This document shows positions 33,247-35,945 of a stretch of DNA of 64,000 nt, piece by piece (the first letter of the stretch is position 1; every line of letters begins with the position of its first letter). The stretch spans positions 1 to 64,000 of the forward strand of contig BGOS01000003.1 in the NCBI GenBank assembly GCA_003569365.1, written 5' to 3'. The position numbers and the translations under genes were made by a program. This DNA is from Anaerolineaceae bacterium (GTDB lineage: Bacteria; Chloroflexota; Anaerolineae; Anaerolineales; UBA11657). Below the pieces are notes generated by a model. It ran no database searches and was not told the DNA's origin. It saw only the letters and a list, made by a program, of their open reading frames with translations.

Positions 33247-34032
33247 TCAAGTGCCTATGAATTTTGGCTTGCGTTTTTGGAGGAAGGCGCTGACGCCTTC
33301 GGCGAAATCCGGGCTGCGGCCGGCAGCATCTTGCAAGTGCGCTTCATACTCCAGGGTGTCCGCAAAGGTGGCCTGCTGCGCATGCTTTAGCGCGCGCTTG
33401 GTGAGCCCCAGCGCGAGCGCCGGGCCGGCAGCCAGGCGCACTGCCAGCGTGTGGGCAGCCGCTGCCAGTTCCGCTGCGGGCAGCACCTTGCTCACCAAAC
33501 CCAGGCGCTCAGCAGTCTGTGCATCCATGCGGTCATTGGTGAACAACATTTCCGCGGCATGCGCGGGCCCAATCAAGCGCGGCAGCCAATAGCTGGCACC
33601 GCAGTCGGGCACGAGGCCAATGCCAATGAAGCCAGCGCGAAAGCTGGCAGTTTGCGCGGCGAGGCGTAAATCGCAACTGAGCGCAAGCGCCAGGCCAGCC
33701 CCAACACAGGCGCCGTTAATCGCGGCCACCACCGGCTTTTCAAGTGCTTCGATCGCGAGCAAGAGCGGGATGTGGGCTGCCTGCATGTGATCGCGCAGCG
33801 AAAATGAGGTGCCGGGCGCGTTAGCAGTGAGGTCTTGCCCGGCGCAGAAGCCGCTGCCCGCGCCCGTAAGCACAACGCAGCGCACCGATGCGCTGCGGGC
33901 GGCGGATTTGAAGGCCCCGTGCAGGGCGGTCATGAGTTCGTCCGTGAGGGCATTCAGCCGGTCGGGCCGGTTAAGCGTAACGGTCAGCACGCCTTCGCTC
34001 TCGGCCGCCAGCAATATTTTGTAGTCACTCAT
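33247..34032 (-). CDS. Enoyl-CoA hydratase/isomerase family protein
   Basis: 261 aa of the crotonase fold: VTLNRPDRLNALTDEL, the oxyanion-hole segment GAGSGFCAGQDL, VAAINGACVGAGLALALSCDLR and GLVPDCGASYWLPR. The Asp in VPDCG matches PaaG/PaaB-like 1,2-epoxyphenylacetyl-CoA isomerases more than classic hydratases, which have Glu. A role in acyl-CoA degradation is likely. Divergent from the SelW-like gene. Confidence 0.9.
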   Translation of the reverse strand: MSDYKILLAAESEGVLTVTLNRPDRLNALTDELMTALHGAFKSAARSASVRCVVLTGAGSGFCAGQDLTANAPGTSFSLRDHMQAAHIPLLLAIEALEKPVVAAINGACVGAGLALALSCDLRLAAQTASFRAGFIGIGLVPDCGASYWLPRLIGPAHAAEMLFTNDRMDAQTAERLGLVSKVLPAAELAAAAHTLAVRLAAGPALALGLTKRALKHAQQATFADTLEYEAHLQDAAGRSPDFAEGVSAFLQKRKPKFIGT

Positions 34033-34114
34033 CAGCGTTGCGGATGTTCACTGGTTTCAGCGGAACGCGTTAATGTTAGCACAATCGCCTCGTTTTTACG
34101 GGGCGGTTTACTGC

Positions 34115-34120
34115 TATACT
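34115..34120 (+). promoter_or_regulatory. -10 box (TATACT) before the SelW-like gene
   Basis: TATACT lies 16 bases before ATG 34137, with GGAG in between as a possible ribosome site. No good -35 element seen. Confidence 0.45.
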
Positions 34121-34136
34121 GCGCGTGGAGACGATC

Positions 34137-34382
34137 ATGAAGCATAACATCGAAATAAGCTACTGTACTTCTTGAGGCTTCACAAAACGAGCCACCGGTC
34201 TGGTGGTTGAAATTTTGGCGGAGTTTGAGGCGCAAATGGAAGTTGTGCGCTTGCTGCCCACAACAGGCGGCGTTTACGAGGTTACCTTGGACGGCAGTCT
34301 GGTCTACTCCAAGCTGGCTACCGGCCGGCACGCGGAGCCGGGCGAGGTGCTGGGGTTGCTGCGCGAGAAACTACAGCTTTAG
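34137..34382 (+). CDS. SelW/Rdx-family selenoprotein candidate (in-frame UGA)
   Basis: Reading through TGA 34173-34175 gives 81 residues: MKHNIEISYCTS, U, GFTKRATGLVVEILAEF, then LLPTTGGVYEVTLDGSLVYS and LREKLQL, ending at TAG 34380. This is the full Rdx thioredoxin-like fold (SelW/SelT/SelH), and the UGA falls exactly at the second redox position of the C-x-x-C motif, giving C-x-x-U. A hairpin with a GGUCU apical loop follows the UGA. Bacterial SelW-like proteins are small redox proteins that usually have Cys here. The alternative is a nonsense mutation, but the position and the hairpin argue against chance. No sel genes are in this window. Confidence 0.75.
34173..34208 (+). promoter_or_regulatory. 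Candidate bacterial SECIS element
   Basis: After UGA 34173-34175, bases 34190-34196 pair with 34202-34208 (seven pairs including one G-U), leaving the apical loop GGTCT (34197-34201). From memory, the E. coli fdhF SECIS apical loop contains the same GGUCU, with its guanine 18 nt after the UGA; here it is 21 nt. Confidence 0.65.
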
Positions 34383-34457
34383 GGCCGTGCGGTCGCGCAC
34401 GTTAGCGTTGGGCTGGCCGCTGCCGGCAGCCCAGTTTAAACCAATCAGGGGACAACC

Positions 34458-35444
34458 ATGACAAGAAGGCCGCGGGTGTTTTCGGGCGCGCGCCCAACCG
34501 GGCGTCAGCATCTGGGCAACTTTCTCGGCGCCATCAAGAATTATGTGGCGCTGCAGGCCGACCATGATTGCGTGTATTGCATTGTGGATCTGCATGCCAT
34601 GACCACGCTCGAAGACTTGCACTTGCTGCGGGCGCATACGGCGGAGATGGCGCTTGACTGGCTGGCAGCCGGCATGCGCCCCGCGGACTCGATCATGTTC
34701 GTGCAAAGCCATGTGCCGCAGCATGCGGAGCTGCACACAATCCTGAGTATGTTTACCCCGCTCGGCAAGCTCACCGATCTTCCGCACTTCAAGGAAAAGG
34801 TGCGCCTGCATCCGCACAATGTGAATTATGGACTGGTGGGTTATCCGATTTTGATGACGGCTGACATCGTACTTTACAAGACCAACCTCGTGCCGGTTGG
34901 TATTGACCAGGAATCCCACATTGAATTTTGCCGGGAAGTGGTGCGCACATTTAACCACCGCACTGGCGGCAGCGTGCTGGTTGAGCCGCAGATGAAGAAC
35001 ACTGAGTATCCGAAGGTGCTGGGTACGGACGGGCAGCGCAAGATGTCCAAAAGCGAGAACAACCAGATTGAGCTGGCGCTGACGGCGGCGGAAACTGTGA
35101 AGGTGGTGCGTGGCATGGTGACCGACCCGGCGCGGGTGCGGCGCACGGACGCCGGCAACCCGGATGTGTGCAATGTATTCACCCTGCACAAAACATTTTC
35201 TGCGCCGGATGCGGTGCAGGAGATTAATGCCGGCTGCCGCAGTGCGGCGATTGGGTGCGTGGAGTGCAAGCTAAAGCTGGCGGAGAACATGAACAGCGGG
35301 CTGGCTGAGCTGCGCGAACGGCGGGCGGCGTTGGCGGCGCGGCCGGATGATGTTTGGGATGTGTTGCGCGATGGCGCGCAGCGCGCCCGCGCGCTGGCCA
35401 CAACGACTATGGACGAGGTGCGCGCCGCTATCGGGCTGCCCTGA
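34458..35444 (+). CDS. trpS: Tryptophanyl-tRNA synthetase
   Basis: 328 aa class I synthetase. The HIGH-type motif is PTGRQHLGNFLGA and the KMSKS loop is QRKMSKSENN; GYPILMTADIVLYKTNLVPV and GIDQESHIE are typical TrpRS segments. Charges tRNA-Trp in the cytoplasm. Complete and of normal length. It may be read from its own promoter or from the SelW-like gene 75 bases upstream. Confidence 0.97.
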   Translation: MTRRPRVFSGARPTGRQHLGNFLGAIKNYVALQADHDCVYCIVDLHAMTTLEDLHLLRAHTAEMALDWLAAGMRPADSIMFVQSHVPQHAELHTILSMFTPLGKLTDLPHFKEKVRLHPHNVNYGLVGYPILMTADIVLYKTNLVPVGIDQESHIEFCREVVRTFNHRTGGSVLVEPQMKNTEYPKVLGTDGQRKMSKSENNQIELALTAAETVKVVRGMVTDPARVRRTDAGNPDVCNVFTLHKTFSAPDAVQEINAGCRSAAIGCVECKLKLAENMNSGLAELRERRAALAARPDDVWDVLRDGAQRARALATTTMDEVRAAIGLP

Positions 35445-35489
35445 GGCTCGGGTTGCGGCAGCGCGGGCTGGCTAAATTACGGTAGCGCC

Positions 35490-35945
35490 GTGCGAGTGTT
35501 GATTCAACGGGTGACGCAAGCCAGCGTGAGTGTGGCAGGCGTGGAGTTGGGGCGGATTGCGCGGGGCTTGCTGCTGCTGGTGGGGGTGGGGCACGGCGAC
35601 ACAGTGGCGGTTGCGGACTGGCTTGCGGATCGCGTAGTTGGCTTGCGCATTTTTGAAGACAACGCCGGCAAGACCAATCTTTCGATCCTGGATGCGGGCG
35701 GCAGTGCACTTGTGATTTCCCAGTTCACTTTATATGCGGACACCCGCAAGGGGCGGCGGCCCAGTTTTATGCCGGCGGCGCCACCAGAGCTGGCCGAGCC
35801 ACTGGTGCAGCGTTTTGCTGCTGGCTTGCAGGCTGCGGGCGTGGCGGTGCAGCATGGCCAGTTTGGCGCGCAGATGCAGGTGGCTCTCGTCAACGACGGG
35901 CCGGTAACCATTTGGCTTGAGCGCGAGACGGGCAGCCCGGATTAA
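35490..35945 (+). CDS. dtd: D-aminoacyl-tRNA deacylase
   Basis: 151 aa. GTG start at 35490 ([13 protein letters not shown]). The conserved motifs SQFTLYAD and NDGPVTIWL (the Gly-Pro motif) are present. Removes D-amino acids, and Gly from tRNA-Ala. Overlaps the end of the convergent lipoprotein gene by four bases. Confidence 0.96.

Follow-up and report, generated by a model that had tools for sequence, protein, structure and literature searches.

The selW-like gene and its product

The window analysed here is a stretch of 64,000 nt from the genome of a bacterium of the order Anaerolineales (Chloroflexota). It contains a short gene of the Rdx/SelW family, which lies between a divergent enoyl-CoA hydratase/isomerase gene and two genes on its own strand, trpS and dtd. 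The positions of these genes, and of the related genes found elsewhere in the same genome, are given in Table 1.

Table 1. Features of the selW locus and selenocysteine genes of the same genome. Positions refer to the window, except in the last three rows, which refer to other parts of the genome.
Feature	Position	Strand	Remarks
Enoyl-CoA hydratase/isomerase gene	33247..34032	-	divergent neighbour, conserved within the genus
Stretch with probable ribosome-binding site	34125..34136	+	GGAGA, 5' of the selW ATG at 34137; read from the sequence
selW-like gene	34137..34382	+	81 codons and TAG, ATG start, one in-frame TGA
Sec-UGA codon 13 (predicted)	34173..34175	+	second position of C-x-x-U; TGA in every orthologue found
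bSECIS hairpin (predicted)	34190..34208	+	7 bp stem, 34190-34196 / 34202-34208; loop GGUCU 34197-34201; 21 nt from UGA to loop
trpS (tryptophan--tRNA ligase)	34458..35444	+	conserved downstream neighbour; own stop TGA
dtd (D-aminoacyl-tRNA deacylase)	35490..35945	+	conserved third gene of the cluster
SelB	C23:79356-81248		312.8 bits, over cut-off; SelB-wing_2 and wing_3 domains
SelD	C23:196969-197907		370 bits with TGA read through
SelA	C11:46096-47417		two pieces in different frames

The TGA at codon 13 is the only internal stop in the selW-like frame. When it is read as selenocysteine (U), the translation is MKHNIEISYCTSUGFTKRATGLVVEILAEFEAQMEVVRLLPTTGGVYEVTLDGSLVYSKLATGRHAEPGEVLGLLREKLQL, followed by TAG, which reproduces the frame described in a first-pass annotation of this DNA, with its TGA at the second redox position of a C-x-x-U motif. 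Gene callers which read UGA only as a stop leave just 12 codons of selW, and the gene can then go unnoticed throughout the Anaerolineales. In the whole window, eight frames with a TGA read through passed a simple filter, and selW is the only one recognised as a single family across the TGA. The selW frame was judged by family profile; the other seven candidates were judged by eye, and none of them is convincing.

The product belongs to the Rdx (SelT-SelW-SelH) family. It matches the Pfam profile PF10262 from residue 4 to residue 76 (E 1.6e-19, 70.3 bits, cut-off 22.6), which covers positions 1-73 of the 74 in the profile. The family sequence is intact on both sides of the TGA, as had been claimed. 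The NCBIfam profile TIGR02174 (CXXU_selWTH) is also matched (E 6e-17, 61.7 bits, cut-off 34.2), and sequence comparison with solved structures gives the same placement in Rdx/SelW. The AlphaFold model (pLDDT 96) has a thioredoxin-like fold. Its best match in the PDB is the SelW-related structure 2fa8, with a TM score of 0.89, and mouse SelW (2npb) is matched as well. The redox motif CTSU occupies residues 10-13, after the first strand (strand 3-10, helix 16-33). From what is known of the family, this small Rdx protein with a C-x-x-U site is probably a thiol/selenol oxidoreductase.

Conservation of the UGA codon, the gene order and the hairpin

An orthologue of selW was found in 37 of 60 related genomes. 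All of them have a single TGA at the same codon, and none has a Cys codon there. A scan of GTDB genomes, with an alignment of 12 sequences as query, confirmed 539 selW loci, and the best 80 of these were fetched. All of these best 80 have the TGA at codon 13, again with no Cys codon. Most are found in Anaerolineales and other Chloroflexota, some in Actinobacteria and one in a Planctomycetota record. Among cultured Anaerolineales, Thermanaerothrix daxensis carries SelW-UGA. A Cys codon in close relatives had been named as a result which would speak against selenocysteine, and it appears neither in the 37 orthologues nor in the best 80 of the 539 loci. The in-frame UGA is thus conserved at the redox-active Cys/Sec position.

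The nearest relatives are two congeners (G001 and G002), which keep the TGA and have 87-88% protein identity. Differences in selW among the three congeners are found mainly at third codon positions, both before and after the TGA. The genus is likely to be of lake origin: the isolate prefix of congener ZSMay80m-chloro-G1 also occurs in connection with a study of planktonic Chloroflexi in fresh water (PMC6169038).

Gene order is also conserved. Among the best 80 loci, 78 have enough sequence for comparison; in 58 of them, trpS is the next gene downstream of selW and has the same orientation, and dtd is next in 52. Some genomes have selW followed by dtd without trpS. In the window, the trpS frame continues past its TGA without a further stop codon into dtd, which is in frame with it (34458-35942). 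The conserved order suggests that selW, trpS and dtd are on one transcript. The spacer between selW and trpS is 75 nt long in the window, and it does not show any exceptional folding (z -0.26). No regulatory RNA family was detected by an Rfam scan of positions 34000-34600, and a scan for sigma-70 promoters near selW gave none.

This arrangement might have a regulatory meaning, compatible with the selenoprotein reading: the UGA would work as a dual switch, with selenocysteine inserted when selenium is present and termination in its absence lowering expression of trpS and dtd on the shared transcript. The conserved order and the 75-nt spacer are in favour of such a switch. On the other hand, the spacer has neither a regulatory RNA family nor a special fold, and neighbouring genes may stay together without being coupled, so we consider it unlikely. 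The same may be said, with slightly more reserve, of the suggestion that the efficiency of selenocysteine insertion in selW tunes trpS and dtd expression, which would connect quality control of translation in Anaerolineales with selenium or redox state.

The hairpin described in the first-pass annotation, with seven pairs, a GGUCU loop and its start 14 bases past the TGA, is present at the positions shown in Table 1. Its folding energy is -10.5 kcal/mol (z -2.8), and only one of 200 shuffled sequences folds as well. Published constraints for bacterial SECIS elements (bSECIS) are a loop of 3-9 nt with G in the first two loop positions, an upper stem of 4-16 bp, a distance of 16-37 nt from the UGA and a minimum free energy of at most -7.5 kcal/mol (PMC13188914). 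With its 5-nt loop, 7 bp, 21 nt and -10.5 kcal/mol, the hairpin of the window agrees with all four.

The pairs of the stem covary in the family. In 30 gap-free sequences, 82% of the cells of the alignment conform to the seven pairs. There are 33 compensatory cells, while shuffles give 12.2 and none of 500 reaches 33. When the partner is slid by one to three columns as a control, only 1-10 compensatory cells are obtained. Columns 20-24 with 30-34 form the core of the stem; its two outermost pairs are weak. The inner pairs 21-33, 22-32 and 23-31 are all complementary in 54 of the 57 distinct sequences with C24-G30; in the corresponding 5000 shuffles, which do not remove relatedness, the mean is 30.2 and the highest value 39. 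Since two covarying pairs occupy first and second codon positions, their changes alter the residues of codons 8 and 11 (the TGA being codon 1) in concert: Ile-Met, Val-Thr, Thr-Val, Val-Ala and Ala-Ala are found. The hairpin appears to dictate pairs of amino acids inside the protein.

The loop is variable. GGUCU, AGUUU and AGUCU are found in a first register, with an RGUYU loop 21 nt past the UGA. A second register, with a CGUGA or similar loop 17 nt past the UGA, fits better in 38 of 95 distinct sequences, and many sequences are able to form both. These SelW hairpins are a natural set of SECIS variants in two registers, which may be used for testing recognition by SelB.

Selenocysteine machinery

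The first-pass annotation had proposed a search for the sel genes in the rest of the genome, whose absence would have spoken against it. SelB, SelD and SelA are all present, although SelA is split between two frames; the part of the proposal which did not succeed is selC, the gene for tRNA-Sec, which was not recovered from the assembly. The winged-helix domains of SelB are the wings which bind the SECIS element. SelD, found like SelB in the same genome as selW, is probably a second selenoprotein: there is an in-frame TGA at its active site, in CAG-U-ASK, and a strong hairpin comes after it. With these proteins, the UGA at codon 13 would be decoded by SelB, which would bring Sec-tRNA(Sec) and bind the hairpin starting 14 nt downstream.

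Compared with a congener, the split in selA is a frame change of one base, located at three consecutive G. Coding character is conserved in its flanks, with divergence of the third-position type on both sides, and congener G002 has an intact selA (526.5 bits). The change is most likely a consensus error; otherwise, it would correspond to recent decay. The presence of selA was tested in 22 genomes. All 12 which contain SelW-UGA have a selA match, over the cut-off in 10 of them; in the other two selA is either in two pieces (G010) or a short piece at the end of a contig (G011). Seven of the 10 genomes without SelW have no selA over the cut-off, and only G005, G035 and G040 have one.

Many genomes of the same order have a tRNA-Sec which is detected by the Rfam model with 64-76 bits. 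In three members of the family (G004, G007 and G009), selC is found between the divergent genes for tRNA-Phe, tRNA-Gly(GCC) and tRNA-Cys and a gene for an M50 peptidase. A position close upstream of this peptidase gene (site-2-protease-like) is seen in several families of the order. In assemblies from this order, breaks within selC or close to it recur: one contig of G005 starts within the gene (L119:1), and G010 has NNN inside it, so that only the 3' part remains (L120:1426-1428).

In the genome of the window and in the two congeners there is no Rfam match to tRNA-Sec over the cut-off. A covariance model built from 11 tRNA-Sec sequences of the order did not find selC in this genome or in the two congeners, and patterns for the anticodon arm and T arm returned nothing in the genome of the window but ordinary tRNAs and chance matches. 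The M50 gene was not found in any of the three congeners. Moreover, tRNA-Phe, tRNA-Cys and tRNA-Gly(GCC) are not among the 40 tRNAs detected in the genome of the window. Since tRNA-Phe and tRNA-Cys are indispensable, the whole stretch from the tRNA-Phe, -Gly and -Cys genes through selC to M50 must be missing from the assembly. This presupposes that the genus shares the gene order of its sister genera, as we infer. The missing selC is most likely an assembly gap, not the absence of a selenocysteine system, and the gene would lie in sequence of this genome which was not assembled. A true loss of selC is less likely, because the neighbouring tRNAs and the M50 gene are missing too.

A selenocysteine system in decay is a rival reading: the lineage would have lost selC and selA, the UGA would terminate and selW would be a pseudogene. 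The failure to find selC in the three congeners and the frame change in selA agree with this, but SelB and SelD are intact, as is selA in G002. The selA change is a single base at a short G run between flanks of conserved coding character, selW codons past the UGA differ mainly at third positions among the congeners, and selC is missing together with its neighbours. We consider decay very unlikely, also as a recent event in this one strain.

Two other explanations have a practically negligible probability. A sequencing error or a point nonsense mutation in a Cys-type gene could be imagined, since the solved bacterial homologues 2fa8 and 3dex have C-x-x-C, but the same TGA is found in every orthologue, in independent assemblies, and is followed by a covarying hairpin. 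If UGA were reassigned generally (to Trp or Gly, for instance), the TGA of selW would likewise be read as a residue, but TGA ends trpS in the window and is also the stop of several of the orthologues themselves, SelA, SelB and SelD are present, and the UGA is at the catalytic Cys/Sec position.

The TGA found in all 37 orthologues and the presence of SelA, SelB and SelD support the selenoprotein reading. We conclude that the gene in the window almost certainly codes for a SelW-like selenoprotein of an Anaerolineales bacterium, with selenocysteine inserted, as we infer, at codon 13.

Comparison with known selenoproteins

SelW-like selenoproteins of bacteria have been known since 2005, from the selenoproteome of the Sargasso Sea (PMC1088965). 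According to a 2006 survey of bacteria, Cys forms of SelW-like proteins are rare or absent in organisms which decode selenocysteine and only three selenoproteins are found in Chloroflexi; in the passages considered here, SelW-like is named in other phyla (PMC1794560). The gene described here shares with these proteins the Rdx fold, a C-x-x-U motif with UGA and a SECIS element directly downstream with G in a small apical loop. With respect to those passages of the survey, the difference is that the present family is widespread in Anaerolineales and adjoins trpS and dtd.

Eukaryotic selenoprotein W (2npb) has the same fold family and C-x-x-U, with 23% identity in the structural alignment and a TM score of 0.71, but its SECIS element is in the 3' UTR. 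The Cys-type Rdx proteins Atu0228 (2fa8) and SAV_2001 (3dex) share the fold and belong to the same family, with about 35% identity and a TM score near 0.89; unlike the product of the window gene, they have C-x-x-C and no selenocysteine. The SECIS element of E. coli fdhF has a small apical loop containing GGUCU, as in the window. However, the host gene is different, and the loop varies in the SelW family described here.

A search for literature on SelW with trpS gave no results, and among the reports found on selenoproteins or selenocysteine in Anaerolineales or Anaerolineae, the one considered here concerns formate dehydrogenases, not SelW. Anaerolinea thermophila UNI-1 has a selenocysteine elongation factor but no annotated selenocysteine dehydrogenase (PMC4959059). 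A metagenome-assembled genome assigned to A. thermophila carries SelW-UGA, and SelW-UGA is one possible explanation for Anaerolineales with this combination.

In summary, the selW-like gene is a previously unlisted member of a known family, not a new kind of system. What it adds to the known cases is the exclusive use of selenocysteine at this position across the Anaerolineales, the conserved order selW-trpS-dtd and a hairpin with two registers. No description of this spread, gene order or pair of registers was found in the mainly open-access literature searched; in fold, redox motif and position of the SECIS element, the gene agrees with the bacterial SelW-like selenoproteins already described.
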